DNA from: Rhizophagus irregularis
Taxonomy: Eukaryota > Glomeromycota > Glomeromycetes > Glomerales > Glomeraceae
DNA: 64,000 bases
Assembly (NCBI RefSeq): GCF_026210795.1
Contig: NC_089449.1
Span: 992,001-1,056,000, forward strand
Direction: 5' to 3'
The notes under the pieces are model-generated. The model searched no databases. It had not been told where the DNA came from and was given only the letters and a program-made list of their open reading frames with translations. The translations under genes and the position numbers were made by a program. Shown here one piece after another: positions 21,045 to 61,421 of the stretch (its first letter is position 1; every line of letters starts with the position of its first letter).

Positions 21045-22325
21045 TCACATATCTACAGTCCAAACATGTTGTTTAATAAGTTCAATACACCACTGGAAAA
21101 GAAAAGAAAAATTTAATAATTTAAATAATAAAGTTATATAAAATAAGTTTACTTACGTCATCATCATTTCCTAATCTTTCATTATGGCAAATAACTTCTT
21201 GAAAAGTATCATCTCCAATAGTAAATTGAACATCACGACTACGTAGGAATTCAACTAAACTACTTTGAGTAGATTTTTTAACGCTAAGATTAATAATATC
21301 ATTTGACATTAAATAACCTTGTTCTAATTTACTATGATATAATTTCCAATCCTCAAACCAATATTTATCATCCTTAGGATTATTACAACTCACTGAAATT
21401 AATAAATATAATAATTAATTATAGAATTAATAAACAAGATGAAGCAAAATATAACTTAATTTATTACCTTCTGTATGATTTGTTGAGGGAGATAAATGAT
21501 AATCATCAACATATCTACCATTATTATCATATTCATAATAATATATTCCAAGAAATTTATTGGATTTGACGTGTTGTAACTTTATAGGAGTATCAGCATA
21601 AGAGGCTAATTCTTTGTCAAATTTAATTTTCCATAATGAATTTGGATTAGGTACTGGACTTCCTGCAAAAGTCTAATAAAAGTTCTAAATAATTAATTAA
21701 AAGTATATTATTTAAAAAATTATAATATAAAAAATTATACCAATTGACTTGTGCTTCCAGTTGTATAACGTAAATCATTAATTGAACTTAAATAATTTCC
21801 TGTAGAAACATGTTTTAATGCTACAATAGATTCACTTTTAATCATTATTGATTCTTCTGCAACAATATTTTCAAATTCTCCAATTAATTCATTAGTTGAA
21901 TTTACATATTTCACTCTTTCATAAAATTCTTCTGAAAAATATTCATTCATTGGAAGTGATTTATTAAGATATTTCTTTTGTTCTTCTATATCATTAATTT
22001 CTGCATTATAACATAATTTACGAAAAGTAGAAATGAATTTTGAAGTATCGCCAGAACTACTTTCAGGTATATATTTTAATGATTGTAACTTTCTTTTATT
22101 GGTATTCTTAAATATTGTAAAAGAAATATCTTCTCTAAGTGCTTTACGTAGTTTACCAAAACTATCGATTCCTGGTGGAAGTGATATTGAAGAATCTATT
22201 AATAATATAGCAATCTCTAAATGTTCATTATATTTATTACTAATATTCTTAAGTCTCAAATATTTTTGAATATCGTTTATCCATTCATTTGGATTAACAT
22301 TTCCATCATACTTTGGAAAATCCAT
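21045..22325 (-). CDS. Gag-like/MIR family protein, copy A (357 aa)
   Basis: Exons 21741-22325, 21468-21672, 21157-21392 and 21045-21092 (phases 0, 1, 0) splice with GT-AG introns of 64-75 bases into one open frame. Residues 1-155: MDFPKYDGNVNPNEWINDIQ, then a helical part with KLQSLKYIPESSSGDTSKFI and LCYNAEINDIEEQKKYL, a pattern like Gag/capsid domains of LTR elements (W near 15, L..L........F...F..LC..A.I.D..E). Residues about 160-350: three MIR-type repeats (ESIVALKHVSTGNYLSS; PIKLQHVKSNKFLG; NDIINLSVKK...FLRSRD), i.e. a beta-trefoil like those of IP3 receptors, O-mannosyltransferases and SDF2. There is no signal peptide or membrane helix, so it is probably cytosolic. Start chosen because MDxPKY is at the same place in nearly every copy. 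Copy A is the most diverged, with the longest first loop (18 residues after FLG) and C-terminus WTVDM. Confidence 0.85.
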
Positions 22326-22979
22326 TTTTTAAGATAATGTAAAAATTAGAAAGAAAATATAAAAAGCAAACTTGGTGGTTACACGATTTATATTATTAAT
22401 TATTAAATTTATTTTTCTGATCTTCGTCATGCTTAAATCAAGACCAGATTAACCACTCATTTACGATTCGGAATTACATAATACTTAATGTAACTACCCA
22501 AAAAGGAAGGATCTACATTCTCTATTATATAAAGGATATGATAGAAATTAAACTTACTACTATAAATAGTAAAAATATGGAAAGGTGATTTGCAATTCTC
22601 TGCGCTGGTTTATACTTTGTTGATATCTCGTTGATATACTTTCGGTCAATTAGATCAATCAAGACCCGCAATAAGTTATAAGGTATAAGATATTGGAGAT
22701 ATTGGTAGCTAGTTCTTTATTAGAATTTTTTGGGTAAATAGTAAATCAGCGTAGTATGATTGTCTAAATATGATCGGCATAATTACCATACTTATCGCTA
22801 TCATACTAACGTAATATAGTGACATAATGGGTTGTGGCTTAAATATTACATACAATACTATAGACGCGTAAAATTGTATTGTATTATATAAGAGGCTGCC
22901 GGAAGAATGTGAGAATTTATTAATAAATTTTATAAAAAATAATTATTATAAAAAATTTTTTTTTTTTTGCAATTATTTT
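22326..22979. other. Spacer upstream of copy A
   Basis: A+T-rich. The paired TTCGG/CCGAA motif found before other family copies is not visible here. Confidence 0.4.
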
Positions 22980-24440
22980 AGATTCAATATTCTTTAGGAG
23001 TGGAGACCAAAGTTCAACTCAAAGTAGTCCAGATCGACCACGTAAACATTGCGAATTTGTTGAACCAAAAATATAATCTAAGCGACTAAGCCATAGTGCA
23101 GATTCTGAATACTGGAAAGAAATTTGTAATAATGAACAGGCCGAAACAGCAGAAAGTCAAAGAACTATACGTATGTATAAATTTATAATCCTTTTTTAAA
23201 AATAAATTACTTTAACTGATTTATTTGTATTTAGACTTTATCCTGTGAAGCATAGAATCTCATAGAAATGGATTCCATGTTCTGGAAAACCTAAACTGAT
23301 CATGGCTTAAGATATTCATGGCAGTGCTATAATGGTAAATTTTAATTTTTTAAATAAACAAGCTTAAAGTTTAAAGGGATAATAACCGTATTCTTCAATA
23401 TAATAGGAGAACAAAACTCATTAAAACATTGTACAATAATTGCTTCACGAAGTTCTCACTAGAAATTATGTGTAAATATGTTAATATGTTTATCGTTTGA
23501 GATTATTTACTATTTATTTCAATTATTTTATTTTAATTAATTTTTTTTAAAAATTATTATTTTTTTTTTTAGAAAAACACGTATTAAATATATAAATATA
23601 TATATATACAATGATGGTCATATTGTTCGACAAATTAGTGAAAAAATGCGGTGTACTTTTTACACCTTTAGTTCCACATTATTACAACAATAGTAATTAT
23701 TTGCAAGGGTGTGTATAACCATTCACCACCTCCTCCTGAAAGAACTGCTAATGGATCTTCAGACGCTTAATAAAAAAATGAAATTGAACAAGATAATTCT
23801 GTGCAAGCTGGATCTATTACTTCTGGTAAAAATTTTTCAAATGCATTTATTTAATTTTTAGTTCTAAAAGACAATCAAATTTAGGAAAATTATTGAAAGC
23901 CACAGAGATTTTATCAGATATTCATATGTCAGTAAACAATATTGGTCGATTACGATATCTTGTTGGAAAAATGAGAATATTTATCCACTTGGCCAAGGAA
24001 TACTTAGGTGTTATTCATTGTGTTCAAACAAACCATGATCTCAAAATTAATTCATGAACTCGAGCCAATCCAAATTGATTTATCATTCAAAAGAGTTAAA
24101 GGCAATATAAATGAATTTGAAGTCAATTCTTATAGTCCTAAGCATAAATTAAGTTCTTATTTTTTATTTTTATTTTTTTAATTACAAAATCTTATTTTTA
24201 TAGTAATATTTATAACAATTATATAGTTCTACATTATGTACGAGTATATACCAATGTTACTACAGCTACAAACTTTTTGTCAATGTTTAACAGGGCAATC
24301 AGTTAAATTTAAACACATAGATGAAGAAGGTTTAGGTGTATCATGGAGATTTAGATGCTGCACAGGCAAAAGGATTAGGGATTTTTTTGTACAGTAAATC
24401 TCAGATATGGATTGGGAAACTCATCTAACTTATATTTTTA
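22980..24440 (+). mobile_element. Decayed transposase-like element (possibly MULE type)
   Basis: Plus-strand coding debris in order: SSPDRPRKHCEFVEPKI (near 23020), SHSADSEYWKEICNNEQAET, then IHELEPIQIDLSFKRVKGNI (near 24050-24110) and HGDLDAAQAKGLGIFLYSK (near 24338-24395). The last two pieces recall the catalytic-domain region of MULE-type transposase-like proteins repeated in Rhizophagus genomes, where a D...AQ..G.G..L motif is typical; this is from memory and weak. Frames are interrupted many times and no terminal repeats were found. It is a very old remnant. Confidence 0.35.
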
Positions 24441-26872
24441 AATCATGTATTATTTATTTTAAATGACAAGATTCTAAAATTAGAAACTTCTCTCTCTCTC
24501 TCTCTCTTTTATCATTAAAAACAAGTGCTGTAAGAACTAGCTAAACCTAATAAAAAAAATTATTATTAATTAAGAAAAGATGTATTAGCTGTTAAAAAGC
24601 GTGACAAAATTTTTTTTTTGAATACATCGTGACTAATAATAAAATGGACTCCCAATTTCATTAATTTCATTCTAAAAGTATGCTTACCCATTTAAACGCA
24701 TTCTGCTACATATTAGTGAAAGCTCGAATAAACGTATGAGTAAATTTAAAAAAATCTAAAAATCTATGATGGTCATTTTTCGTTCGTGATCATCATCTAA
24801 TCCGCAAGAATTAACAAATTAAACCAGAAATACTTTAGTAGTTTCAAATAAAGAAGCTCGTGTTTATTATAAAGCATTTAAATAATATGGCTATTGAAAA
24901 TTTCTTTTCGCCATGTGTTTCTGCTTTTGTCCAGATCTCGATATAAATATTCTTTTCTTGAATATTGGACATTTGAAGAATTTTCCGTGTCAGAAACGAA
25001 TTTTTTTTTTTGCTGTTATTATTTTACGTATAGGCTTTGGCAAAACTTTTAAAACTTTGGTAGTAGCTTTGATAAGAGCTGCCATGATTTAGATGAGATC
25101 CTTTACCGCTATGATATTCTGTGTATAATATTAATTTTATTTTTTTTTTAATTAAAGAGTTTACAATTTTTCAGTACTTATAATATAATTTTTACTGGAA
25201 CTTTTTCGGCTTATAATCAATTTCTTTTTACAACAAGAATTTTATAGCCTTTTGATGAGGTTGAAAATTTTGATTATAGTATCAATTAAACAACAAATAT
25301 TTTATTTTCTGGAAGTATCTTAAAATGTGTGATACATCAACTGATTCACCAAAATATACCAAAATATACAAAAAATCACGAACTCAAATGCTAATCATGG
25401 AATTGCCCAATTTATTGAAATTCAGGAGAATTAAAATATTTTGGATGGAAGAATAATATAGATGACGATGAATTTATATATGACCTTGACGGGAAAATTT
25501 TTATTGTTATGAATCTTACTTATTATTAAAATTTTATTGTTATGAAGTAAGTTGATAATTTAAAGAGTTCTTATTTATTCAATTTATGGAAATTGTCCTT
25601 TAATTAAATATTAATTTAAACAATTTTATTTTCGTCATCAAAGGAACATTTCAATCGTTTCATTGAATATTAATACTTTGTCAAATACATCAATATATAA
25701 AAGGAGAATATGAGAAAATATTGGAAAATGGGAAATAAATATTATCTTCAACAAATTTAAGAGGATTAGATTTTTTGATACTATTAAATTTTCTTTAGAA
25801 AATTTGAAAATATTTTTTGGGTTGGCCCGCTTCTGATCTTACTTATGGGAATAATATACAAATCTTATCAATAAATATAAAAATGATGGTGTGCGTGATT
25901 TATATTTTTATAGTAATTAATTATAAATTGACAGTAAACAAAAAATTTTATTATTATAAGTTTTGTATAGCAGGATAAGTTCGATTTAATAAATTCAAAA
26001 AATTGTTAAAGATAAAAGTAAAAATATAATTCATACTTTATTTTACTGATTAAATCTTTATATTTTTCTTGATTTAATACTTTGTAGCATAATTTAAACA
26101 AAGGCCTTTAAAATATTGTGCAAAAAAATCTCATCCAGAATTTATTTTTTTTATAAAAAAAAAAAATTCTCAGATTTTAAGATTTCCAAACTTTCTTGTT
26201 AGATTAAACCCAAAAATTTAAAAATACATTAGAAGACTCGAGTACTCTAAGCAAGCTTTGTAGAAAAGACAGATTCAAGCCCCCATGCCTACTATCAACT
26301 GACATTAACGATATATCGTGAGTGATCAAACTCGTGCAGAGGTACTGTCACATTGATAATAAGACATGAGACCCACCACCAAAGGGAAGGGCCCCACATA
26401 CAGAAGTCTGCGACATAGCTTGAGAAATCATTTCTATCATTGTTCTCATTTAAGGTAACCAAACTTCTAGAAGAGGAGGATAACCGAAGCACTCTAGGTG
26501 CACAAATCCCTTATACATCCCAGCTTAGTCATTTCCACTTACCAAAATACATTTAAGTCAGTAGAAATCTTCCAAGACTTTTGCAGAAAAGATAAGAACA
26601 AAAGTCTTATATCATATGTATTAAATATAAGTTCAAAACAGTTATAATAACTATTAAAAGAAAATGATAGATGATTAAATATATCGGACAGTAGTTGTAA
26701 AATAAAAAAAACACGCGATAGGTGACAAAGTAACGCGAAAATATTTAATTACGAGAGTTATGTTGTAATAAGCGTTGGTGGAGGGCGGTTGTTTAAAGAT
26801 GCTAGAAAAATGTTGATGTTTGGATATTAAAGAAAAAGATAAATGTTAAAGATAATATTTAAAGATAATAAT
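24441..26872. other. Spacer with scattered debris
   Basis: A (TC)n run lies at 24489-24508. Further plus-strand scraps up to about 25480 may continue the decayed transposase-like element. Around 26270-26470 composition is more balanced, but no gene is recognised; the 65-codon minus frame there has no support. Confidence 0.35.
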
Positions 26873-27046
26873 AAATATTAAAAGGAGAAAAAACTTTCGA
26901 AAACTAAATATTAAAAGGAGAAATAGACTTTCGAAAACTAAATATTAAAAGGAGAAATAAGCCTTCGAGTTTCGAAAACTAAATATTAGAAGGAGAAATA
27001 AGTTTTCGAGTTTCGAAAACTGAGAAATAAACTTTCGAAAAACTAA
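26873..27046 (+). repeat. Minisatellite, AAATATTAAAAGGAGAAATA unit
   Basis: About four and a half head-to-tail units start near 26873, 26906, 26940 and 26981. The period is 33-34 bases, growing to 41 where TTCGAGT is inserted. Each unit contains CTTTCGAAAACT. Confidence 0.8.
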
Positions 27047-27829
27047 AAAGTCTGAAAAAAGCGTTTTTATAGATAATTTTACTGTGAGTCATTGTGATTA
27101 CTATGATGTAAGATTGTTTACGCGCCATATCCATTACGCGTATGTTAATGTTATTTAAGCTTATATAGTTTATATAATAATGTGTGTTACCTGAGTTTTT
27201 GGTTCCCGGTAGTTTCCTAGTTCATAATCATTCGTAAATATAATTTAGAGGACGTAAAATTGATGAATAAGCATGGAAGTTATGGATACTGAAAATATAT
27301 TTGGAGTATCTTATTCACGACATGATAATGGAGAAATGCAAAGAAATTAATCTATATATTGTTTTGTTAACACTAATCTTATTTACTATTAGGGACACTA
27401 AATGGTAAAATCAAGGAAATTTTTATTAATCTAACGAATACAAAAAATTACAAAGAAAAGCACAATCTTCTTGAAGCAAAATCTTAAAATCGAAAATAGG
27501 TATACTGAGAATTTTAACTTTGAAATGGATGAAACCAGAAAAGCTCTTGTGAAGCTGAAGCTCTTGAATTACTTACCCAAAAAGGAAGGCTATAGGATTA
27601 TTTTAAAATTAGTAAAAGATAAGGTAAATAATATTGTATATGTAATTATTATCAATAAAGTACACGCGTTCTTTGATAAGAATTTATATGATTAACGTAA
27701 AAAATGTGATCATATGTACATGCGATTTTTAGTAATGAAACGCCCGCTGCGACTCCGCCGCCGCTGATTAGTAAAAGATAATATTATTATATTCAGTATA
27801 CTGTATATATTAGTCCATATATATATATA
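27047..27829. other. Spacer
   Basis: A 74-codon open frame (27471-27695), K/N/L/I-rich, has no recognisable domain or splice context. Nothing else was identified. Confidence 0.35.
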
Positions 27830-28085
27830 AGCTAGTTGACTTACAAATTTTTCAAAACGCAATGGTATGATCATCTATATTAGTAAATTTCGAATTTGAA
27901 TTTGTTTCATCAATTGATTTATAAAGATATTTCTTTTATTCTTTATTTTATTAATTTTGGCGCTATGACATAACTTGAAAAAGTCTGAAATTAATTTTTG
28001 AAGTTATCACTGCTTTTAGGAAATTTTCTATCTTCAATTTAGTCAATTGAATGTAAACAGTATCTTATCGGCAACCTCATTATCA
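27830..28085 (-). pseudogene. Exon 1 fossil of the Gag-like/MIR family
   Basis: The plus strand at 27895-28045 aligns by eye with the complement of the central part of family exon 1 (the SLP..., EEQK, CYNAEI, TSKFI region). The other exons are missing, and the piece is strongly diverged. Confidence 0.6.
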
Positions 28086-28639
28086 CGGTGGCTTCGCCAT
28101 GATATCAATGGCATCAATGGCATTATAAATCAACAATTACACAATACGAACTGTTTTAAAATTTATAAATTTATCTATATAAGTTAATATTGTTAATATT
28201 TATTTTCTATATTTTTCTTTTTTTTATCTTCATTATTTATATCATTACTGTTTATCTTTATCAAAACTATTATTTTTATTATCCTTAACATTTGTAGAAT
28301 TATCAGTAATAGTATTACCAGTACTTTCTATAAAATAAGAAAACAATTAATACTTTCATACCTTTTTCATTATTAGTTAATTTCTGCAACATTAAGGAAA
28401 GAATTCGGAATTATTCTATTTTAAAAATAAACTTACGCGCTTTATTTGAGAATAATGCAATAATTAATTAATTATGCAAAGAAAAAATTACAGCATTACA
28501 AAAGTTTGATCTTTTTTTTTTTAGTATTTTGTAATAACGATGCTTATTATGATTTATTAATGATTATTTATATGAAAAGGTAGTATACTATCTAATGAAT
28601 GGTATATTATCTCAGCTGCAATTGTTATTGGGGTAAAAA
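28086..28639. other. Spacer with a possible short terminal exon
   Basis: On the minus strand, after an AG near 28330, SGNTITDN-like S/T/N-rich sequence runs to a stop near 28240 (ending NNSFDKDKQ). A donor-like site lies at 28438. It could be the last exon of an unidentified gene; low confidence. Confidence 0.25.
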
Positions 28640-29328
28640 CTAATCATTTTTTCCAACCCTTTTTATAGCAACATTAGTTACAGCACTTTTTGAAACACTT
28701 GTATCAGCATTTTGACCAGGTCCATCTCTTAGGAATTTACATTCTCCGTAACCTAATTCTTCAACTTCCCAAGAATTGTGGTCGGAACCCAAAAATACTA
28801 TACACGTATCACTTGTATAATCTTTATCAATAGTATAATAATAATAAGTATCTTGTCGGGCACGAAAATTAATTCGATATGGTGTAGTACTATCTAAAGT
28901 TTGCAAAGTTATAACGTCATTTTTCGGAACTACTCCTGAATCGCCATTTTGGGGCATATGACCTCCACAATAGAAATTAATATATCCATTAGGATCATTT
29001 AGACCATTAGGTATAAGGGTTATGAAATGTTGATTCAAATCTTCCATCCAAAGACTACAAATATCATAGTCTGTAAAAAAAAAAAGATCAATTAATATAC
29101 ATTTTTTTATAAATTTAATAATTAAATTTAAGACTTTCTTACTATTTCCGAAGAGTGGCAAGATTAGAACCTCGTATGCTATTATATATCAAATAAATAA
29201 ATTAAATTGTTATAATGAATCGATTTAATATATATTTAAAAAACATTACCTTCAGTGCCTGGTACAAAAGGTGTGATACCCATTAGACAAAAGATAATGG
29301 TAAGAATGAAAAAAGTTAGATGTTGCAT
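28640..29328 (-). CDS. Secreted protein of unknown function (181 aa)
   Basis: Exons 29250-29328, 29143-29178 and 28640-29070 join through GT-AG introns (phase 1 both) into an open frame. Exon 1 encodes a classic signal peptide, MQHLTFFILTIIFCLMGITP, with likely cleavage before or near the GTEAYE junction. The mature part of about 155 residues has four cysteines (YDICSL, NFYCGG, SDTCIV, GECKFL), fit for two disulfide bonds, and no membrane helix or ER-retention signal; the end is IKRVGKND. A compact beta-rich extracellular fold is plausible, but no family is recognised. Small, Cys-containing, secreted and placed in a repeat-rich tract, it has the look of a candidate effector or cell-surface protein; that role is inference. 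Start chosen as the ATG directly before the hydrophobic core. Confidence 0.8.
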
Positions 29329-29895
29329 GATGGAAATTGCTATTGATATATTAATGATGTCTTCAAGATGTAATAACAATTTATCTCAAGCCCCATTGAG
29401 AAAGGTATGTGTATATATATACAATTTTTTAGTGAAAAAGAAATCATAGATATACTTTTTTCATTTTCATACTAAATCTATTGAAAATGAAGAATTGAAA
29501 GATGCATGAATCTTTGCTTCATTCTTAGTGTGAAAATGGTATATCTCAATTAAATAACAATAACTAATAACTCCATAAAAATGAGCCTTTTCGCGGATCC
29601 ATTCACGGAAAATGTAAATAAATAATTCGATAAATTCTGTAAGGTTATTATTAATTCCGGAAGTATGAGTCTTTTACGAAAAAAAGATGGAATATAAAAA
29701 ACGGATCGACTTTTTTTACATAATGGAAGGTACATCTTACCACAAATGAAAATAAACCTATTTAGCGATAGTATGTTTTTTGAAGTGGTGATCATTCTGC
29801 ATGACCTTCCTTATTTATTCACTCTTTCGCATATTTTCTTCTTTTTGGGAATGCACCATGTGAACTTCGTAGTTTAATATTATTAATATTATTAT
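29329..29895. other. Upstream region of the secreted-protein gene
   Basis: The plus-strand frame 29255-29449 is antisense to the signal-peptide exon. No gene; no clear promoter box. Confidence 0.4.
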
Positions 29896-29897
29896 AC

Positions 29898-32560: not shown

Positions 32561-32594
32561 TTTTTTTTTTTATAAAAATAATGCTGTGGCTGGG

Positions 32595-33669: not shown

Positions 33670-34967
33670 TTAAGACTGTAAATTATCTATGGTCCAATTA
33701 TGTTGTTTAATAAGCTCAATACACCACTAAAAGAAAAAGAAAGGATTAATTATTTATTGTGTATTAAACGAAAGAAACAAAGACTATATAAAACCAATTT
33801 ACTTACTTCATCGTTTTCTTCTAAACTTTCATTATGACAAATAACTTCTTGAAAGGTATCATTCCCAACAGTAAATGGAATATCATGACTACGTAAAAAT
33901 TCAACTTTGTTATTATCATAACGTTTCTCAATACTAAGATTAATAATATCATTTGATTTTAAATATCCTTGATGATCTTCTAATTCACTATCATTAAATT
34001 TCCAACTGTCATCCCAACAATTATCGCTAGAATAATCGCAACAACCCACTAAAAAATGAAAATTAATATTATTTTAATTAAAGATTTAATAAAATAAAGT
34101 AATATATATTTTTAATTATTACCTTCTGTAAGATTAGTTGAAGGAGATTTATAATAATCAAGTAAGATATAACGATCATAATGTATTCCAAGAAATTTAT
34201 TACCAGATTTGATGTGCTGAAACTTTATTGAAGTATTGTTGTAAGTAGCTAATTCTTTATCAAATACAATTTTCCATAAAGAATTTGGTCCAGGTACTTG
34301 ACTTCCTACAAAAATCTAAGAAACAATATATTATATGTTAGTTCTATTAAAATATAATTTAGATATTCGTAAAAAAAAATCATAATACCAATTGATTATA
34401 ACTCCCAGTTGTATACATTAAATTTTCAGCCGAAATTAAATATTTTCCTGTAGCAACATGTTTTATTGCTACAATAGATCCATTTTTAATTAAATTTGAT
34501 TCTTCAACAACAATCTTTTCAAATTCTTTAATTAATTCATTTTTTGAATTCACATCTTTCATTTTTTTATAAAATTCGGTTGAAAAATAATAACTCATTG
34601 GAAGTGATTTACAAAGATATTTTTTTTGTTCTTCTACATCATCAATTTCTGCATTATAACATAATTTGAAAAATTTTGAAATAAATTTTGAAGTATCACC
34701 ACCTCTACTTTCAGGAATATATTTTAATAATTGCAATTTTCTTTTATTTGTATTCCTAAACACCGCAAAAGAAATGTTTCCTTTTAATGCATTACGAAGT
34801 TCTTCAATATTACTAATTTTTGCTGGGAGTTTGATAGTGGGGTCTATTAATAATATAGCAGTTTTTAATATATTAAAATCATTCAAATTATGAATATGTC
34901 GAAATTTTTGAATGTCGTTTATCCATTCGTCTGGATGTATATTTCCATCATATTTTGGGAAATACAT
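33670..34967 (-). CDS. Gag-like/MIR family protein, copy C (356 aa)
   Basis: Exons 34389-34967, 34123-34315, 33807-34048 and 33670-33726; introns of 73-80 bases. Starts MYFPKYDGNIHPDEWINDIQ; position 2 is Y where other copies have D. The first variable loop is IHYDRYILLDYY; exon 3 opens VGCCDYSSDNCWDDSW, with three Cys in its first ten or so residues; the third-repeat loop is short (RYDNNK). The C-terminus is extended to WTIDNLQS. The upstream region differs from B, D, E and I and instead matches a second stretch at 36490-36780 that has no gene behind it. Confidence 0.85.
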
Positions 34968-37865: not shown

Positions 37866-40190
37866 AACTTCATAACCTACAAATAGATTTTATCAAAAGT
37901 TAGTGAAAAATGTCATTGCTGTATCGGTTGTTGAGTGCCTATGCTGGTCCTAAAGGTGGCGGCTACCTATGTACCAAAAAGCTAAGTAGGCATGTCATCA
38001 TCATAAGCACAAACCAGGGATCAACTGGAAACTCAAATCGATACACCACTTGAATGCACCTACTAGACACTTCTTACATCATAAAGGAATACCTACCAAT
38101 ACTAGATCCTCTAACATGATTGATATAATATCCAAAAAGTAGGGTAAATAAAATAGAAAAGAATAAATAAATAATAGAGAAAAGAAAGAAAAAGAAAAAG
38201 AAAAATCAAAAAGAGAAAAATAAAATAAGGAAATAAATACCAGTGAAATGATGTTATTACAGGACACTTGAGTTTGTGAAATATCAGCATAATCAGACAT
38301 TATTATGAAAACAGTTGATTGTTGACTTCATAACCTACAAAATAGATTTTATCAAAAGTTAGTGAAAAATGCCATTACTGTATCGGTTGTTGAGTGCCTA
38401 TGCTGGTCCTAAAGGTGGCGGCTACCTATGTACCAAAAAGCTAAGTAGGCATGTCATCATCATAAGCACAAACCAGGGATCAACTGGAAACTCAAATCGA
38501 TACACCACTTGAATGCACCTACTAGACACTTCTTACATCATAAAGGAATACCTACCAATACTAGATCCTCTAACATGATTGATATAATATCCAAAAAGTA
38601 GGGTAAATAAAATAGAAAAGAATAAATAAGTAATAGAGAAAAGAAAGAAAAAGAAAAATCAAAAAGAGAAAAATAAAATAAAGAAATAAATACCAGTGAA
38701 ATGATGTTATTACAGGACACTTGAGTTTGTGAAATATCAGAATAATCAGACATTATTATGAAAACAGTCGATTGTTGACTTCATAACCTACAAAATAGAT
38801 TTTATCAAAAGTTAGTGAAAAATGTCATTACTGTATCGGTTGTTGAGTGCCTATGCTGGTCCTAAAAGGTGGCGGCTACCTATGTACCAAAAAGCTAAGT
38901 AGGCATGTCATCATCATAAGCACAAACCAGGGATCAACTGGAAACTCAAATCGATACACCACTTGAATGCACCTACTAGACACTTCTTACATCATAAAGG
39001 AATACCTACCAATACTAGATCCTCTAACATGATTGATATGATATCCAAAAAGTAGGGTAAATAAAATAGAAAAGAATAAATAAGTAATAGAGAAAAGAAA
39101 GAAAAAGAAAAATCAAAAAGAGAAAAATAAAATAAAGAAATAAATACCAGTGAAATGATGTTATTACAGGACACTTGAGTTTGTGAAATATCAGAATAAT
39201 CAGACATTATTATGAAAACAGTCGATTGTTGACTTCATAACCTACAAAATAGATTTTATCAAAAGTTAGTGAAAAATGTCATTACTGTATCGGTTGTTGA
39301 GTGCCTATGCTGGTCCTAAAAGGTGGCGGCTACCTATGTACCAAAAAGCTAAGTAGGCATGTCATCATCATAAGCACAAACCAGGGATCAACTGGAAACT
39401 CAAATCGATACACCACTTGAATGCACCTACTAGACACTTCTTACATCATAAAGGAATACCTACCAATACTAGATCCTCTAACATGATTGATATAATATCC
39501 AAAAAGTAGGGTAAATAAAATAGAAAAGAATAAATAAGTAATAGAGAAAAGAAAGAAAAAGAAAAATCAAAAAGAGAAAAATAAAATAAAGAAATAAATA
39601 CCAGTGAAATGATGTTATTACAGAACACTTGAATCCACCTAAGCCGTCGTACTATTTTCAATTATGGTACGAATGAATTATATTTTTTCGGTTATGTTTG
39701 TAAGGTTAATGATGTTCGTTTATTTCTGACATTTTAACAGACTTCATAACCTACAAAATAGATTTTATCAAAAGTTAGTGAAAAATGTCATTACTGTATC
39801 GGTTGTTGAGTGCCTATGCTGGTCCTGAAAGGTGGCGGCTACCTATGTACCAAAAAGCTAAGTAGGCATGTCATCATTATAAGCACAAACCAGGGATCAA
39901 CTGGAAACTCAAATCGATACACCACTTGAATGCACCTACTAGACACTTCTTACATCATAAAGGAATACCTACCAGCACTAGATCCTCTAATATGGTTGAC
40001 GTAATATCCAAAAAGTAGGAAAAAAAAATAAATATAAAAAAATGAGTAAATAAAATAAAAAAGAATAAATTAGTAATGGAGAAAAGAAAGAAAAGAAAAA
40101 GCAAAAAGAGAAAACTAAAATAAAGAAATAAATACCAGTGAAATGATATTATTTCGCAACAGTTGAATTTGGGAGATATCAGACGTTATT
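37866..40190. repeat. Five-unit tandem array, period about 454 bp
   Basis: Units begin near 37871, 38329, 38782, 39236 and 39745 (CATAACCTACAAAATAGATT). Units 2-4 are almost identical; unit 1 has a longer A/G-rich tract; unit 5 is the most diverged. Each unit carries a purine-rich tract (GAAAAGAAAGAAAAAGAAAA) and on the minus strand repeats a reading frame MSDYSDISQTQVSCNNIISL, directly followed by GTATTT. At the unit 4/5 joint (39630-39740) the usual spacer is replaced by unrelated sequence of about 100 bases. High identity indicates recent amplification. Confidence 0.9.
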
Positions 40191-49129: not shown

Positions 49130-49370
49130 GATAAGAAATGAGATCAAATAAATTTAATTTCTCCTATTATTTCATTATGACAAATAATTTTTTGAAAAGT
49201 ATTATTTCCAGCAGAAATAAAATTAATTTGACTATTTGAAGATAAACCTTATTACAGTTTTTTTTTAATGCTAAGATAATTTGACTTTAAATATCCTTGA
49301 TGATTTCTAATTTACATACTTTCATTTCATTAAGAACGATTTCTAACATATGCAACTAAAATAATAAAAA
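49130..49370 (-). pseudogene. Exon 3 fossil of the Gag-like/MIR family (block G)
   Basis: Plus-strand TATTTCATTATGACAAATAA, then TAATGCTAAGATAATTTGAC and TATCCTTGATGATTTCTAAT, follows exon 3 in complement. No exon 1, 2 or 4 remains. Homologous fossils lie at the same relative place at 52340-52570 and 58560-58830. Confidence 0.7.
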
Positions 49371-50684: not shown

Positions 50685-51965
50685 TTAATCGTCTATAGTC
50701 CAAATATGTTGTTTAATAAGCTCAATACACCACTAAAAAAAAAATGAGGATTAATTGATAAATCTTAGTAAATGATAAAAAATGAGGTTAAATAACATAA
50801 ATCTACTCACTTCATCATTTCCTCCTAATCTTTCATTATGACAAACAATTTCTTGAAAAGTATCGTTTCCAATAGTAAATTGAATATCATGACTACGTAA
50901 AAATTCAACTTTGTTATTATAAAAACTGTTCTCAATACTAAGATTAATAATATCATTTGATTTTAAATATCCTTGATGATTTTCTAATTTACTATTATTA
51001 AATTTCCAATTTTCATCCCAATAGTTACTAATATAGCCAACATTAATGATATTACTAGTACTATTACAACTCACTAAATAATAAATTAAATATATTACTG
51101 CGATTTAAGAAGCAATATAAAACAAATTTTAATTTATTACCTTCTGTGTGATAAGTTGATGGAGATTTGCAGCAGCCATAAATTCCAAGAAATTTATTAT
51201 TTGATTTGATGTGTTGTAACTTTATCGAAGTATTGTTGTAAGTAGCTAATTTTTTACCAAATTTAATTTTCCATAAAGAATTTGGATCAGGTACTAGGCT
51301 TCCTGCAAAAACCTAAGGAACAATATATCATATGTTAGTTCTGTAAAATATAACTAAATATTCGTATATACGAAAAATCATAATACCAATTGAAATTTGT
51401 TTCCAGTTGTATAACATAAATTTTCAGCTGAACTTAAATATTTTCCTGTGGCAATATGTTTTAAAGCTACAATAGATTCATCTTTAATCAAATTCGATTC
51501 TTTAACAATAATATCTTCGAATTCTTTAATTAATTCATTAACTGAATTTACATCTTTCATTTTTTTATAAAATTCGCTCGAAAAATAATTATTCATTGGA
51601 AGTGATTTATAAAGATAATTTTTTTGTTCTTCTATATCATTAATTTCAGCGTTATAACATAATTTGAGAAAATTTGAAATAAATTTTGAAGTATCACCGC
51701 CTCTACTTTCAGGAATATACTTTAATGACTGTAATTTTCTTTTATTTGTATTTTTAAAAACTGTAAAAGAAATATTTTCTTTTAATGCATTACAAAGTTC
51801 TTCAATATCACGAATTTCAGTTGAGAGTTTGATAGTGGGATCTACTAATGATATAGCAGTATTTAAAAACCCTCCATAATTTTTTCCCCACATGTAATTA
51901 TATTTCTGAATATCATGTATCCATTCATCTGGATGAATATTTCCATTATATTTTGGAATATCCAT
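50685..51965 (-). CDS. Gag-like/MIR family protein, copy G (353 aa)
   Basis: Exons 51387-51965, 51141-51312, 50811-51073 and 50685-50732; introns of 67-78 bases. Starts MDIPKYNGNIHPDEWIHDIQ. The first loop is very short and Cys-containing (FLGIYGCCKSP); exon 3 opens with VSCNSTSNIINVGYISNYWD, the longest such insert next to copy D; the third-repeat loop is SFYNNK. The exon 3 donor is GTGAGT, as in H and I, whereas A-F use GTAAGT, which supports G, H and I as one young subgroup. An in-frame extension upstream of the ATG is rejected for the reason given under copy F. Confidence 0.87.
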
Positions 51966-51974
51966 ATTTTTTTT

Positions 51975-52570: not shown

Positions 52571-53866
52571 TAAAAACAATTATCGGATGGGAGTAATATA
52601 TCAGTCACTCCGTAGAGGTGGTGACCGATATTTTTACCTCATCCAATAGTATATTATTACCTTAGATTTAATAATCAGAATAAATTTTTAATTTATTATT
52701 TTCTAATGATAGTAAATAGATATATCGACGATTTGCGTCAGATGTCAATCGTACTATTTTTTAAAGTTATGTTCACAATACTATGAATCTGAATGGTTTG
52801 AATTTTTTGGAATATAAAAATTAACAAATGTAGTGTATAAATTTATATTGAACAGCTAAAAAAAAAATAATACCGATTTTCAATTTTACGCTTATTAAAT
52901 TCAGCAAATTTTTTTTGAACTGTTGCGTCATAATCGTATTTCTGAATTTCTGAAGTTGGCATAATTAAAATAATTCAAGTTCATTATTTCTCTAACCCAT
53001 ACCCTGTAAAAAAAGTCGATCTGTTTTTTATATTCCGTCTTTTTTTCCGTAAAAGGCTTACTATATCTACGGAATTAATAACCTTATATCACGGAATTTA
53101 TCGAATCATTTACATTTTCCGTGAATGTTTACAGAAATAACGGATAAAATTTTTTATAGGGATGCTATAATCATAAAAATAAATTTCCATCAAATTTTTT
53201 TCATTAGGCGACACAATGTTAAACAATTGGTTCTCGTTTCATGGATTTAAAATTTTGAAGTCGGCGGTTATTTTTATTTAAAAATTTTGTATATTTGTAA
53301 GGTAAAAATGGTAGTCCCAAATTTTAAAAAAATTTTTAACTTTTTTTTTTCTTTAAATAACCTGCTAATTATTAATATTAACAAATTTTTTCTAGGTCGG
53401 CGATTATGAGAGTCAATTTTTTAATGCTGTGTCGCCTTATACAAAATCTAAACTCTTTTACCATGATTCTGTTGCAATTCTAAGGCACACTATTAAATAT
53501 ATTTCAGAATATCTTTTCATGGATATTTTGATATAGATGTTTGATGAGGTACTATGTCTGATAACTATTAACCATCATTTTCGTTTACACTAATAATTCT
53601 CAAGACCAGCTTTTTGGTAAGTGGTTTTATAATTCTGTAAAATATAAGCGTGAAATTGTTTTATTGTGATTATAAACTCAAATCATATGTTAGTATTTAC
53701 CTCACATTAAATAATCTTTGTATGAATATAACTTGATTTATTTTTAAATACAAATTACTATCCAACCAATTGAATAAATTTTAAGTTTAGCATAATTTAT
53801 AGGAGTTGAAGAACTTGAATATGAAACTAACAAATAACTAATAAATGAATTAATAATCAAAATTAT
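52571..53866. repeat. Spacer block of copy H
   Basis: Near-identical partner of the block-G spacer, with small deletions (for example near 53390 and 53608). No gene. Confidence 0.8.
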
Positions 53867-55143
53867 TTAATCGTCTATAGTCCAAACATGTTGTTTAATA
53901 AGCTCAATGCACCACTAAAAAAAAGATGAGGATTAATTGATAAATCTCAGTAAATGATAAAAAATGAGGTTAAATAAAATAAATCTACTCACTTCATCAT
54001 TTCCTCCTAATCTTTCATTATGACAAACAACTTCTTGAAAGGTATCATTCCCAATAGTAAATTGAATATCATGACTACGTAAAAATTCAACTTTATTATT
54101 ATTATAGTATTTCTCAATACTAAGGTTAATAATATCATTTGATTCTAAATATCCTTGATGATTTTCCAATTTACCATGATTAAATTTCCAATTCTCGACC
54201 CAATAATTACGGTTACTAACATAATTTATATCATTACAACTCACTAAAAAAATAAGTATAAACATTACTTTAGGTTTAATAAACAAAATGAGCAAACGTA
54301 TTTTAATTTGTTACCTTCAGTATGGTTATTTGATGGAGATCTAAAATAATCATAATAATATATTCCAAGAAATTTATTACTAGATTTGACGTGTTGTAAC
54401 TTTATAAAAGTATTGTTGTAAGTAGCTAATTCTTTACCAAATTCAATTTTCCATAAAGAATTTGGATCAGGTACTGGGCTTCCTGCAAAAATCTAAGGAA
54501 CATTATATGATATTAGTTCCGTAAAATATAACTAAATATTCGGATATATAAAAAATCATAATACCAATTGAAATTTGCTTCCAGTTGTATAATGTAAATT
54601 TTCAGTTGAACTTAAATATTTTCCTGTAGCAATATGCTTTAAAGCTATAATAGATTCATCTTTAATCAAATTCGATTCTGTAACAGTAATCTCTTCAAAT
54701 TCTTTAATTAATTCATTAACTGAATTTACATTTTTCGTTTTTTTATAAAATTCGCTCGAAAAGTAATTATTCATCGGAAGTGATTTGTAAAGATAATTCT
54801 TTTGTTCTTCTATATCATTAATTTCAGCATTATAACATAATTTGAGAAAATTTGAAATAAATTTTGAAGTATCACCACCTCTATTTTCAGGAATATATTT
54901 CAATGATTGTAATTTTTTTTTGTTTGTATTCTTAAATACTGTAAAAGTAATATTTTCTTTTAATAAACTACGAAGTTCTTCAATATCACAAATATCATCA
55001 GGGAGTTTGATAATGGGATCTACTAATGATATAGCAGTTTCTAAAAACCCTCCACAATTTTTGTACCACATGTAATTATATTTCTGAATATCGTGTATCC
55101 ATTCATCTGGATGAATATTTCCATCATATTTAGGAAAATCCAT
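53867..55143 (-). CDS. Gag-like/MIR family protein, copy H (351 aa)
   Basis: Exons 54565-55143, 54315-54492, 53993-54243 and 53867-53914; introns of 71-78 bases. Starts MDFPKYDGNIHPDEWIHDIQ. The shortest intact member. First loop IYYYDYFR, third YYNNNK. Exon 1 differs from G in the stretch VDPIIKLPDDICDIEELRSL and in KKTKNVNSVNELIKEFEEIT, so G and H have diverged mostly by amino-acid changes in the N-domain while their spacers stay nearly identical. Ends VWTIDD. Confidence 0.87.
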
Positions 55144-55360
55144 ATTTTTTTTACAACAGTGTGAAAGTGGAGAGTCTACCGGCTTTAATTTTCCCCGAAG
55201 TTCAAGTTATATCGTTTTGGCATCGCCACTTACCAAATTCAGAAAATGTACATCACAATTACGTAACATCTACTAGACCAAAATTGATTTTGATCTCCAT
55301 ATCTCCATAAAGTCCATGGCAAATGACCCTGAATGACGTTCGAATAATGTCAGGTTTGAG

Positions 55361-57829
55361 TAGGGATGGGCAAAATGCGGAAATTTCATTTTATCACGCG
55401 CATGATGCGCATGATGCGCATCATGCGCATCATGCACATGATACACATAGTACTGTTATACAGAAAAAAAAAATACGATTTCTTTACAAAAAAATAAAAT
55501 TTTTTATTATTTATTTTACTGAATTATTAACAAGATACATCAGAGTCATCAGCTTCATTATCATTAAAACTCTCTTCGTTTTCACTACTACTATTTACAT
55601 CATCATAATCACTTTCTTCATTTTCGCCTGAACTTTGAATTTCGTCATCTACAACTCCCCCGTCTAACGAAGTATTTTTATCAAACCCGTTTGTAAACCC
55701 TTTCCATTCTGGCGTTTCTCGTGGCATTTGTAATCTATAATTGCTATAAATATACACTAATTTAAAGACACGATCAGCTCTCAACCGGTTTCGTTTTTTA
55801 TCATGAATGTATGCAAATGCTGACCAATTTCTTTCAGACGCAGCAGATGATGTTGGAATAGATAAAACCTTTTTTGCTACTTGAGTAAGTTCAGGTGCAG
55901 AATCACTAAAATTTCCACTCCACCAAGTTATAGGATCAACATTATCAGAAGTTTCCCAAGCAAGTTTATTCGCAAAAACTCCAGTTTTTCTCCTATAATT
56001 CAAGATTTGTGTCCAAATAATTACTGCATTATCCGAATAATATTTTTGGATAAACTGCGAAATTCTATCCATTGAATTAGAAGTAAGATGGCAACCATGG
56101 AATGATGGATCAAGCAGATGCGCAACTTCCATAACAGGGTGGTAAATACTTTCCCACCTTTTTTTGATAATATTTTTAATACTCGTATTATTTCCGTTTA
56201 TATCAAAAACATAAACTTGAGAAATTAAATTTGATTAGTAATAATTTAGATTATATTTACCAAAGAAAAAAATGATATTTTACCTGATGATTCTAATTGA
56301 TTGTAATACCAATCTAATACTTTAGATAAAAAAGGTGTATCCGATTCAAACATAGAAATTCCAATAACAAGTTCGTTGAGAACTTTGAGTAAATTATCAA
56401 CATCTTTCCAAAACCCATCATTTAATACAATACTTCTCATATCATCATCAATTCTAACAGTTTGATTACGTGATAATTCTGTTACCGTTAATTCAATAGC
56501 AAGCTGATTTACTTGAAGTGAATTAAGGCAAATAGCTGATGATCCCCAACGTGTTTTTACAGGTAATTTAAGTGAAATTTGCTTATCATAACTGGATCTT
56601 TGATATCGTTTCAGAACTGCAGCTGGAATTTGATGTGATTTGAAATATTTAACGATTTTCTTTCCATTTTTTATAGTACTATCCGCCCAAGGGAGTTTCA
56701 TAATATCACCAATTAGAAGATTTAAGGAATGAGCTACACAGCCAAGGAAAACTATGTTTGGATATTTAATAGCCAAAAGTTTCCATGCTTTCTTCATTGA
56801 AGATGCGTTATCAGTAATAATTGCTGAAAGTTTGGAATGATCAATCTGTGATATAACTTTATCAATGTCGGCTGCAATATTTTCTCCTGTTTGTTTGATT
56901 TCACCAGTTTGATGAGCAGAGAAAAATACTGGTCTTGGCGTGGTAATTAAATAATTTGTCCAATGTTCTTGCAACATATTTGACCTAAAAATATTTATAC
57001 AAGATATTTATAATGAATATATAAATAATAGTTAAAAAAAATATATCACCTACCATCCATCAGAAATCAAACAAATATAATCAGTTGATTTAATCAAATT
57101 ATTTATTTCATCTTTTGTATCCTCATATACCGTGTCAAGTAATGTTGTTGATAAAGCTTTTCGTGAGGGCAATTTAAAACAAGGACGAAGTTTTTGAAAA
57201 AGAATTTTAATTGGTTCTAGTTCAGATAATGATAAGAATAATCCACATCGGTAAACTGCTTGTGCAAATAATAGTTCAGCTTCATTTTGTTCTGCTGAAG
57301 TTATTTTGTCAACAAAATTATTTATTGATTTTTGCGGTTGTTTCTTAATAGTAACAATATTATTTTGCTCTGTTGGTAAATGGGAATTAATACGTTGTTT
57401 TGCACTAAGTTTAAAATCTGGCCCAAAAAATCCTTGGAGAACTGTTATACTTGCACTTGAACAGGTTTTTAAATGTGCAATACATTTGTTAGCAGCAGCA
57501 TTTAGTTCATGATTACAGTATTTGCATTGTGCACGGGCTTGCCGAAAACCAGCCACATGTCCAAGTTTATTAAAGTGAGCCCAAATAGGGCTAGTTGGAG
57601 GCATTTTTGAACTGATTGAACGAAGAAAAAAATTTTTTTTTGTGAAAGATCTAATGTAATACAAATTTATTATAAATTCCATTTTTGTTAATTTATAATT
57701 TTGGCCGGAGTTAGGGTGTAAAGTTTACCAGAATTACAACTTATAATTTATTACAAAATTTATCATGCGCATAATGCGCATTATGCGCAATGCATAATAG
57801 CAACACATAATGCGCATGGCACATCTCTA
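55361..57829 (-). mobile_element. hAT DNA transposon, apparently complete (2469 bp)
   Basis: Both ends are flanked by the identical 8-bp duplication GGTTTGAG (55353-55360 and 57830-57837), the hallmark size of hAT. The termini form short inverted repeats: TAGGGATGGGC at the left, complement of TAGAGATGTGC at the right. Subterminal GCGCAT/ATGCGC repeats cluster at 55396-55450 and 57763-57817, probable transposase-binding sites. One transposase gene fills the interior. Perfect target duplication and an open gene point to recent insertion. Confidence 0.93.
55527..57604 (-). CDS. hAT transposase (646 aa)
   Basis: Exons 57054-57604, 56284-56984 and 55527-56215 join by two GT-AG introns (phases 2 and 1) into an open frame. 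Domains in order: BED zinc finger at residues about 8-48 (W8, C27-x2-C30, H44-x3-C48) for DNA binding; the RNase H-like catalytic core, with the first Asp in LISDGW at the first splice junction and the second in AIITDNASSMKKAW; the conserved FLGCVAHSLNLLIGDI that follows; and the C-terminal dimerisation region with LSIPTSSAASERNWS and RLRADRVFKLVYIYSN. It is followed by an acidic S/E/D tail. Length is normal for hAT. Start at MPPTSPIW; a longer in-frame start at 57682 is possible. No break seen, so likely active or very recently so. Confidence 0.92.
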
Positions 57830-57976
57830 GGTTTGAGTCATTTAAAATTAATTCAGGCCAAATTTATGATGCCGGCCGGAATTACAATTTTATTGAAACA
57901 TCATGATGTAATTTTTAAATGAGTCATTTGTCAGAAATGAAAATAACACGTGACCAGTCGTTTGAGCTCCGGCCAT

Positions 57977-58067
57977 CTAGCAATAAAGAAAAATTTTTAA
58001 TTAGAATGTTGAGTTTTTCGCCGTCTCTTTACACTTCATGAAGACAAAAAGGTATTTCCGCAAATAT
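57977..58067. other. Original flank upstream of copy H
   Basis: TAGCAATAAAGAAAAATTTT and TTTCGCCGTCTCTTTACAC match 52146-52200 before copy G. Confidence 0.6.
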
Positions 58068-58082
58068 TGTAATCTGAAAAAT

Positions 58083-58403
58083 TTTATTTTATTTTTATTT
58101 TTATTATATAGACGAGTACTGAGGAGATACAAAACAAGCAGACGCTATACTAATTAAAAGATAGACTATACTACATCTAGAAGTAACTACCTAACCCGTT
58201 AGCGTTACAAAGTAACGAGTCGTCCCGCCTTTTATTCCTCAAGGGACCATTAGGCGTAACCGGCCCGTCATGACGAACCAACAACAGCAAGAGACCGTAA
58301 CCCTAAATTTAAAAAGGAAGATATTTTAAATGGACATAAAATTGTTCAAAATTATCAATACTAGATATACTGTATGTGGGATATATAAATGACCATAATG
58401 GGA
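58083..58403 (-). mobile_element. LINE or SINE 3' fragment with poly(A) and target duplication
   Basis: An insertion of about 320 bases absent from the paralogous block of copy G. On the minus strand it ends in an A-rich tail (ATAAAAATAAAAATAAAATA) and is bordered by a 15-base duplication with one mismatch (TGTAATCTGAAAAAT at 58068-58082, TGTAATCCGAAAAAT at 58404-58418), as expected for target-primed insertion. The inside is G+C-richer (GGACGACTCGTTACTTTGTA and GGGCCGGTTACGCC). No coding frame, so it is a truncated LINE end or a SINE. Confidence 0.65.
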
Positions 58404-58509
58404 TGTAATCCGAAAAATAATACAAATAACCAACCCTATAAAAAATTTTGATCACGTGTCTGAGTTTCTTCGGAATAAACTAGAAAAATGATAGAGCAAC
58501 GAATTAGTT

Positions 58510-58830
58510 GATTTAAAGTATCTATGGTAAAAAAAAAAAGAATTACTAATCTTAATTCTTAAGCGATAAGAAATGAGGTCAAATAAATTTAATTTCTCCT
58601 ATTATTTCATTATAACAAACAATTTCTTGAAAAGTATTTTTCCATTAAATAAATTTAACGTCATGACTAAATAAAATTGATTTGACTATTTGAAGATAAA
58701 CCTTATTAACAATTTTTTTATTAATGCTAAGATAATTTGACTTTAAATATTCTTGATGATTTCTAATTTATTGTTATGATTAAATTACTTTCATTCCGAT
58801 AAGAACGATTTCTAGCATATTGCAACTAAA
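58510..58830 (-). pseudogene. Exon 3 fossil of the Gag-like/MIR family (block I)
   Basis: Third partner of the fossils at 49130 and 52340, without the palindrome. The piece just left of it (TAAAGTATCTATGGT, near 58515-58529) is a scrap of exon 4. Confidence 0.65.
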
Positions 58831-60098
58831 ATAATAAAAACAATCATTGAATGGAGGGGTAACATACCAGTCACCCCTAAGGTGTGACTGATATTTTTAC
58901 CTCATCCAATAACCATAGTATATTATTACCTTAGATTTAAAATTTAATTTACTATTTCTGATGATAGTAGGTGACGATTTGTACTGTATTTTTAAAGTGA
59001 TAGTGATGTTCACAATACTATGATTCTATGAACCTGAATGTTTTGAATTTTTAGAATTATAGATTACTAACGCGAATATGTCACATGATCTATTATATAA
59101 ATATAACTATTATCCATTAATAATTCTCAGTTAGTTCAGTGGTTATCCTATCAACGGTAATACAAATTATACAATATACACGATTTTTAAATAAAATCCT
59201 ATTTATTATTATTTAAGTAAAATAATCATTTAAAAGAAAACTCTTAAAATTCTTAAATTTGGATTTTGAAATATTTAATTAACGATAAATAGGGTTCATC
59301 TCGTAATACAAAATGTATTGCGAACCAACTTGTTCTTATGGATAATAAATAATTAAAGGTGATTCAAACGTTTTATAGCAGATTTATTCTTTAAAATTCT
59401 GAATTCATATTTTTTTTTTGTTAATATTTGCTTCTTCTAAAGATCTTATACAGGTTCGACAAAATTCATGTCAAGTAAAGTAATTTAAACTCTGAATGTT
59501 TAACAGCTAAAAAAAATAATACCGATTTTCAATTTTCGCTTGTTGAATTCAGCAAATTTTTTTTTGAACTGTTGCGCCATAATCGGATTCCTGAAATAGG
59601 CATAATTAAAATATTTCATAATCTAATCACAAAAATAAATTTCCTTCAAATTTTTTGTTATACAAAATCTAAATTCTTTTTCCATTCTGCTGCAATTCTA
59701 AGAATTCTAAGGCACATAAATAATATTTCGGATGAATATCTTTTCATGGGTATTTTGATATAGAAGTTGATAAGGTATGTCTGATATGTCAGGTCCCTTC
59801 GCAGGGTACGAAGTCAAACACTTTTATGGGTTTTAGTGAGCCTTTTGGTAAGTGGTTTTTATAATTCTATAAGATATATTATTGTGATTATAGACCTCAA
59901 AGAATATGTTGTTCACGGCACATGAGATAATCTTTGTATGAATATAACTTAATTTATTTTATTTATAAATATAAATTACAATCCAAACAATTGAATAAAT
60001 TTTAATTCTTTTCAAAGTTAAGCATAATTTATTAAAGTTGACTGAAGAACTTGAATACGAAACTAACAAATAACTAACAAATGAGTTAATAATCAAAA
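58831..60098. repeat. Spacer block of copy I
   Basis: Related to the spacers of G and H but shorter in its middle and with about 350 bases (59080-59460) not found in them. No gene; the 63-codon frame 59572-59763 is inside the repeated part and is not conserved. Confidence 0.6.
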
Positions 60099-61421
60099 TT
60101 ATTTAGTATCTATGGTCCAAATATGTTGTTTAATAAGCTCAATACACCACTAAGAAGAGATGAGGATTAATTTTTAAATCTTAAATGACAAAAGATGAAG
60201 TTAAATAAATATTTCTACTCACTTCATCATTTCCTCCTAATCTTTCATTATGACAAACAACTTCTTGAAAAGTATCGTTTCCAATAGTAAATTTAATATC
60301 ATGACTACGTAAAAATTCGACTGGTCCATTTGGAGTATAATCACCTCTATCATCGTACAATTTCTTAACGCTAATATTAATAATATCATTTGATTTTAAA
60401 TATCCTTGGCGACTTTCTAATTTACTATCATTAAATTTCCAATTATCATTCCAATATTTACTAGAATTACTGATATGATTAGTACTATTACAACTCACTA
60501 AATAATAAATATAAATATATTACTGCGATTTAAAAAGTAACATAAAATAAAATTTAATTTATTACCTTCTGTGTAGTTATTTGAAGGAGATTTATAGTAA
60601 CCATAATAACCTTTATAACCGCCATAGTATATTCCAAGAAATTTATTACTAGATTTGATGTGTTGTAACTTTATCGAAGTATTGTTGTAAGTAGCTAATT
60701 CTTTACCAAATTTAATTTTCCATAAAGAATTTGGATCAGGTACTGCTGGACTTCCTGCAAAAATCTAAGGAACATTATATGATGTTAATTCTGTAAAATA
60801 TAACTAAATATTCATATATATAATAAATCATAATACCAATTGAAATTTGCTTCCAGTCCTATAATGTAAATTTTCAAATGAACTTAAATATTTTCCTGTA
60901 GCAATATGCTTTAAAGCTACAATAGATTCATCTTTAATCAAATTCGATTCTTTAACAATAATATCTTCAAATTCTTTAATTAATTCATTAACTGAATTTA
61001 CATCTTTCATTTTTTTATAAAATTCGCTCGAAAAATAATTATTCATTGGAAGTGACTTATACAAATAATTCCTTTGTTCTTCTATATCATTAATTTCAGC
61101 GTTATAACATAATTTGAGAAAATTTGAAATAAATTTTGAAGTATCACCACCTTTACTTTCAGGAATATATTTTAATAATTGTAATTTTCTTTTATTTGTA
61201 CTCTTAAAAACTGTAAAAGAAATATCTTCTTTAAGTGCATTGCGAAGTTTCTCAATAGTATCGATTTCGGTTGGAAGTGATATATTAGTATCTACTAATG
61301 TTTTAGCAATTTCCAAATAATCGTTAATCGAATAATTATTATTTTTAAGTTTCAAATATTTTTGAATATCGTTAACCCATTCATCTGGATGAATATTTCC
61401 ATTATATTTTGGCAGGTCCAT
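60099..61421 (-). CDS. Gag-like/MIR family protein, copy I (369 aa)
   Basis: Exons 60837-61421, 60566-60764, 60223-60497 and 60099-60149; introns of 68-73 bases. The longest intact member. Starts MDLPKYNGNIHPDEWVNDIQ. The first loop is IYYGGYKGYYGYYK, almost only Y, G and K; exon 2 carries an extra Ala (SPAVPDP). The third-repeat loop LYDDRGDYTPNGP matches copy E, whereas the exon 3 donor GTGAGT and the spacer group it with G and H. Such mosaic similarity suggests gene conversion or unequal exchange between copies. Ends IWTIDTK. Confidence 0.87.

Follow-up and report, generated by a model that had tools for sequence, protein, structure and literature searches.

Tandemly amplified genes of Rhizophagus irregularis that join a probably capsid-like domain to a MIR domain

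Domesticated capsids have been described mainly in animals and yeast, where they occur as single genes or as families of modest size. Arc, PNMA and SIRH/RTL/PEG10 carry a capsid (CA) domain in a host gene together with attached domains, and mammalian examples have other partner domains and, in some families, rapid evolution (PMC11011659). A capsid-derived restriction factor of the Drt2/Ty1 kind, a fungal host gene with a capsid domain, is known in yeast (PMC10951436). Drt2 derives from the element that it restricts. MIR, for its part, is the domain of SDF2, PMT1/2/4 and the IP3 and ryanodine receptors. Here we describe a gene family of Rhizophagus irregularis that appears to join these two themes, a capsid-like N-terminal domain (N domain) and a C-terminal MIR domain, presumably a beta-trefoil, and that is represented by nine tandem genes in the window, the whole 64,000-nucleotide stretch of DNA analysed (contig C21, bases 992001-1056000; the genome comprises 32 contigs and 146,748,485 bases).

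The family resembles Arc, PNMA and SIRH/RTL/PEG10 in its putatively CA-type domain within a host gene, its attached domain and its partly rapid evolution, and the capsids of Arc, PNMA and PEG10 are the best structural matches of its N domain; it differs from them in being fungal, in having a MIR trefoil as partner, in its dozens of clustered copies and in reaching the cut-off of no Gag-type Pfam family. From Drt2 it is set apart by amplification, by fusion to MIR and by an N domain that is only remotely like the resident Gags tested. With SDF2, PMT1/2/4 and the IP3 and ryanodine receptors it shares MIR, recognised by sequence in paralogues, whereas the capsid-like N domain, the variable loops and the lack of an obvious signal peptide (by hydropathy) distinguish it. 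Full-text literature searches returned no description of a capsid-like domain paired with MIR, which is no proof, since most subscription papers lay outside their scope. We read the family, with a probability of roughly 0.37, as soluble intracellular proteins in which a two-lobe, all-helical CA-type domain serves as scaffold for a diversified MIR recognition module.

All nine genes of the window (A to I) lie on the minus strand between 21045, the end of gene A, and 61421, the start of gene I. Each has an open four-exon model with intron phases 0/1/0, the splicing being deduced from GT..AG borders, phase and open frame, and the proteins are 351-369 amino acids (aa) long. These models and our own reading of the sequence confirm the nine intact genes on one strand, with these limits and lengths, that an earlier sequence-only reading of the window had reported. 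The genes, the N domains that led the two structure predictions and two degenerate relics are as follows.

21045..22325, minus strand: gene A, exons 22325-21741, 21672-21468, 21392-21157 and 21092-21045, 357 aa
31277..32560, minus strand: gene B, exons 32560-31976, 31900-31708, 31637-31390 and 31309-31277, 352 aa, short tail
33670..34967, minus strand: gene C, exons 34967-34389, 34315-34123, 34048-33807 and 33726-33670, 356 aa
43030..44337, minus strand: gene D, exons 44337-43747, 43677-43506, 43427-43156 and 43077-43030, 360 aa
44958..46270, minus strand: gene E, exons 46270-45692, 45610-45418, 45346-45087 and 45014-44958, 362 aa
47546..48830, minus strand: gene F, exons 48830-48252, 48175-47995, 47924-47674 and 47602-47546, 355 aa
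50685..51965, minus strand: gene G, exons 51965-51387, 51312-51141, 51073-50811 and 50732-50685, 353 aa
53867..55143, minus strand: gene H, exons 55143-54565, 54492-54315, 54243-53993 and 53914-53867, 351 aa
60099..61421, minus strand: gene I, exons 61421-60837, 60764-60566, 60497-60223 and 60149-60099, 369 aa
60957..61421, minus strand: residues 1-155 of gene I, the putative capsid-like N-terminal domain, used as lead sequence for AlphaFold model 1
51507..51965, minus strand: residues 1-153 of gene G, the putative capsid-like N-terminal domain, used as lead sequence for AlphaFold model 2
49162..49317, minus strand: degenerate exon-3 relic with three TAA, no exon-1 match upstream
58597..58770, minus strand: degenerate exon-3 relic with two TAA, no exon-1 match upstream

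The conserved start motif noted earlier holds in so far as nine copies occur in the window at no more than three mismatches, as against none in 100 shuffles, but it is not uniform: gene A has NVNPNEW, gene C MYFPKY and gene F MDISKY. Gene B is open but stops early, directly after WCIELIEQCA. Chance or a gene-finder artefact is ruled out by the shuffled-sequence comparison, by the constant splice phases and by a pooled omega (the ratio of nonsynonymous to synonymous change) of 0.43-0.50 over 40 core copies.

Exon 1 encodes both the N domain, roughly residues 1-155, and the first MIR motif, ALKHxATGKYLSS, with the junction between the halves inside it, and the MIR half is distributed over the four exons; the two halves belong to one gene. 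Across the genome, exon 1 of gene I has at least 122 matches. In 78 of them the frame is open and spans residue 6 or lower to residue 181 or higher; these 78, selected by that span, hold the N domain and the first MIR motif in one exon without a stop or an intron, and thus bear out at the DNA level the fusion that had been proposed. The remaining 44 are partial, broken or end early. Seen from the other side, 78 of the 85 exon-3 matches have a same-strand exon-1 match 0.3-1.4 kb upstream, and the seven unpaired ones include the two relics of the window; this pairing used 103 of the 122 exon-1 matches, and none of the other 19 is positioned upstream of the seven. One degenerate N-domain relic, L105 (C1:923500-925600), stops where MIR would begin, with no MIR match within the 2.1 kb read; its best match is L062 on C20, at 42%.

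Tandem amplification proved far larger than the nine copies from which it had been claimed. The 78 open exon-1 matches are distributed over C21 (68), C12 (5), C20 (2), C25 (1), C10 (1) and C13 (1); 67 of the 68 on C21 fall within 400-1445 kb and 47 within 690-1075 kb. Their strands form only 12 runs; 10,000 shuffles averaged 34 and never gave fewer than 20, and so low a number is what duplication in tandem blocks should produce. Complete four-exon models were obtained from 64 of 83 stretches (the nine of the window and 74 paralogues), the 19 without a right-phase model comprising pseudogenes and divergent copies on which modelling may have failed. For omega, entropy and trees we used 61 models, leaving out L046, L054 and L059, whose 3' ends are doubtful, and retaining L016, the last residues of which are off frame in its model. 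Over these 61, introns 1, 2 and 3 have medians of 74, 71 and 73 bases. A search of bacterial and archaeal genomes with one peptide pattern yielded no relatives, and in IMG/VR 337 pattern matches were obtained without any being confirmed, both being limited searches that distant relatives could escape.

The identity of the C-terminal half as MIR is established through paralogues. Against PF02815 (MIR; curated cut-off 25.6 bits), copies E and I of the window have scores of 19.2 and 18.4 bits, and four other paralogues 20.9-23.7 bits, all below the cut-off, whereas two paralogues on C12 reach 51.3 bits (E 1.7e-13) and 43.0 bits; the family thus passes the cut-off via its basal members only. In PDB searches gene E matches an SDF2-like structure (E 0.018), and the MIR part of a C12 copy matches the SDF2-like chain 3mal (E 9.3e-15) and PMT1 (E 7.5e-10), so that the MIR assignment of the sequence-only reading stands. 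Of the six paralogues scanned, one has Ins145_P3_rec above its cut-off, and apart from this no further Pfam domain passes in any of them; two family proteins had no match in NCBIfam. Four family members on C12 form a small array (C12:2228642-2256408), of which both scanned members exceed the MIR cut-off. In a tree with three further MIR-bearing loci of this genome as outgroup, which PF02815 had picked out and which we label PMT/SDF2-like, the four C12 copies separate from the 57 others (SH-aLRT 84 and 92), a placement that is tentative in view of the long branches. Taken with the C12 MIR scores, this separate branch gives the window copies the look of rapidly evolving relatives of a canonical MIR protein, and the C12 members are possibly closest to the ancestral form.

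For the N-terminal half we ran AlphaFold twice, with the nine window sequences as alignment and gene I (model 1) or gene G (model 2) as lead sequence. Both models have eight helices (model 1: pLDDT 81, pTM 0.70; model 2: pLDDT 78, pTM 0.68). In Foldseek searches of the PDB, ranks 1-8 for model 1 are capsids of Arc, PNMA2, Arc, PNMA2, Copia, PEG10, Arc and HIV (E 0.36-2.0), and ranks 1-3 for model 2 are capsids of PEG10, PNMA2 and HIV (E 1.3-1.9); at lower ranks unrelated helical proteins appear alongside more HIV capsids, of which the PDB contains many. A search of viral models gave caulimovirid proteins as seven of the ten top matches (E 0.15-1.4), the viruses concerned being presumably Caulimoviridae. 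Thus, when we asked whether the N domain folds unlike capsids and belongs to another known family, the earlier assignment was not refuted, the best matches of both models being retro-capsids.

Sequence comparisons point the same way for the basal members. Of six basal N domains (from C12 and C13), four match DUF7041 (best E 2.2e-4), which we take to be Gag-associated, three match Caulimovirus coat (9.6e-4) and three Retrotrans_gag (0.046); any other Pfam family matches at most one of the six. Within a 52-member set, which has four rows in common with the six basal ones, DUF7041 matches four members, Caulimovirus coat three and Retrotrans_gag (PF03732) four (best E 0.084), all below the cut-off. 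Searched over the whole genome, the DUF7041 model gave one weak match and the Caulimovirus coat model four, two of which are C12 family members (E 0.068 and 0.22). When the basal profile was run on 15 resident Gag open reading frames (ORFs), which are near copies of two families, its best segment lay in CA in 15 of 15, in one register, at 0.5-6.0 bits. No retroelement close to the N domain was found, and the domain is only remotely like the two resident Gag families tested. PHROGs returned only weak matches, to families of unknown function; a PDB sequence-profile search with the N domain gave no capsid, its hits, all at E 0.16 or worse, including Hfq and ribosomal proteins; and a CCHC zinc knuckle is present in none of the 61 proteins.

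Several observations weigh against a capsid fold of this half. No structural match reaches E 0.001, the best PDB Foldseek value being 0.36, and the eleven top capsid matches have TM-scores of 0.32-0.44 (query-normalised over the whole domain) with root-mean-square deviations up to 12.5. The AlphaFold alignment consisted of nine close sequences, and mean pLDDT was below 60 in three of five predictions of the model 1 run and two of five of the model 2 run. The DUF7041, Caulimovirus coat and Retrotrans_gag matches of the basal N domains are all below cut-off, and two unrelated families, CCDC93_CC (6) and GeBP-like (5), match more of the 52 members. Registers disagree as well: one paralogue aligns to Retrotrans_gag at residues 56-115 as N domain alone but at 109-162 as whole protein, and for DUF7041 the aligned residues are 13-48 in one paralogue but 104-143 in another. 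With the 52-row profile (hmmsearch), 14 Gag ORFs were matched, the best segment falling in CA in 10 and elsewhere in four, and of those 10 segments two agree in register with the basal profile and eight differ. Profile-profile comparison with the resident Gags is not significant (best E 0.055), its best match being in the basal register. Since the matches are each weak and the Gag registers disagree, capsid homology rests on convergence of methods, and since no Gag-type Pfam cut-off is reached, we use the term capsid-like and make no claim that the domain belongs to Retrotrans_gag. On this footing the N-terminal half probably has a capsid-like fold, and the earlier proposal of a Gag-type half is probably right, with the weakness of every match and the inconsistent Gag register standing against it. 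That the half descends from a retroelement is somewhat less probable than the fold itself; the direction would likely be that of a capsid taken over from a retroelement.

Selection acts unevenly along these proteins. In the 40 core copies the N domain has a pooled omega of 0.43 and MIR one of 0.50, the corresponding values for the nine copies of the window being 0.37 and 0.52; the framework evolves under purifying selection. Among 377 near pairs, constraint is strongest at residues 97-120 (omega 0.19-0.20) and in the last MIR strands (0.22-0.27), and windows near or above 1 occur at residues 25-40 (1.09), 201-216 (1.17) and 233-248 (0.96). Column entropy sets hypervariable segments at 24-35, 240-246, 262-269 and 305-310 against 77 near-invariant positions. 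Two points count against diversified loops: entropy and omega agree only partly, segment 262-269 sitting in windows of omega 0.45-0.60, and omega near 1 in gapped loops may reflect relaxed constraint or misalignment. Genes G and I are 72% identical in DNA over residues 1-40 and 99% over 121-160, and the N-domain tree and the MIR tree put gene I in different places; this uneven likeness and discordant placing suggest sequence exchange between copies.

Other explanations account for parts of this evidence. The N domain could be an unrelated helical protein-protein domain, CA-like by convergence, forming a lineage-specific helical part on expanded MIR proteins. Every CA match is indeed weak taken singly, the PDB sequence-profile searches are without a capsid and the Gag alignments are inconsistent in register; convergence nonetheless leaves it to coincidence that the top structural matches of both models are capsids, that the only Pfam families to match several basal members are three of capsid or Gag type, and that the basal profile falls on the CA of both resident Gag families in one register, with which the best profile-profile match concurs. 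We consider it unlikely. A restriction factor of the Fv1/Drt2 type, whose capsid-like domain would co-assemble with and poison the Gag particles of retrotransposons or viruses while MIR adds targeting, would suit the capsid-like fold of both predicted models, the large tandem family with variable loops, the yeast precedent and the many resident Retrotrans_gag elements (150 of 150 scored, among 306 candidates, matched). Known capsid-derived restriction factors, however, are as a rule close relatives of their targets, unlike an N domain that is only remotely like both resident Gag families tested, and the most conserved residues are those of the putative second lobe, 97-120; we regard this explanation as distinctly unlikely.

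Very unlikely, in our view, is a domesticated capsid of the Arc kind that would package RNA and move it from one nucleus or hypha to another, MIR serving as its contact with membranes or glycans: the presence of Arc, PNMA2 and PEG10 among the best structural matches speaks for it, but the CCHC knuckle is missing from all 61 proteins, and dozens of diversified tandem copies would be unexpected of such a carrier. The MIR half, whose closest PDB relatives are SDF2-like and PMT proteins, invites a further alternative, that of secreted or endoplasmic-reticulum-resident SDF2/PMT-type proteins acting in glycoprotein quality control or as symbiosis effectors. Yet the proteins begin directly with the N domain; in the 61 models the N-terminal hydropathy maximum has a median of -0.13 and a largest value of 1.35, and a 19-residue stretch over 1.6 occurs in three, by a measure of hydropathy only. 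This alternative, too, we regard as very unlikely. The low N-terminal hydrophobicity, together with the absence of the zinc knuckle, suggests instead that the family proteins are soluble and intracellular.

Under our preferred reading of a CA-type scaffold joined to a diversified MIR module, the N domain would retain CA-type self-association and form a multimerising scaffold displaying many MIR trefoils; the variable loops of these may bind ligands. Tandem duplication and exchange between copies would diversify these loops, and the array could thereby work, we propose, as a repertoire of recognition or restriction proteins directed at variable targets, such as non-self hyphae, viruses, retroelements or endobacteria. 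In its fullest form the proposal is speculative and unlikely: variable MIR trefoils, multimerised by a domesticated capsid, would serve as multivalent receptors in allorecognition or in defence against viruses or transposons, and would be diversified by the clustered array of dozens of copies.

Other features of the window lie around and between the nine genes. Between genes H and I, a hAT-like transposon comprises three adjoining ORFs (55527-57724, minus strand) with a hAT dimerisation domain (E 6.1e-17), DUF659 (4.9e-19) and a BED finger match below cut-off. An 878-aa open frame (17-2653, plus strand) has weak matches only, mostly to coiled-coil types and all below cut-off, and a 182-aa open frame between genes A and B (28640-29188, minus strand) has no Pfam match. 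AT skew is high at 1-2000 (0.279) and at 38001-40000 (0.255), and GC content ranges over 20.7-34.8% in 2-kb steps. An endogenous asfarvirus region of 1.5 Mb on chromosome 8 of R. irregularis strain 4401 was considered as a source and set aside, its GC content being 36.6% (PMC10640383), against the range just given for the window.

The self/non-self and antiviral systems of mycorrhizal-type fungi are little known. If our reading is true, a capsid-like fold and a MIR trefoil would form a new domain pairing in a fungal family with 78 open first exons, and mycorrhizal-type fungi would possibly have, in its products, multivalent recognition proteins of a new class.

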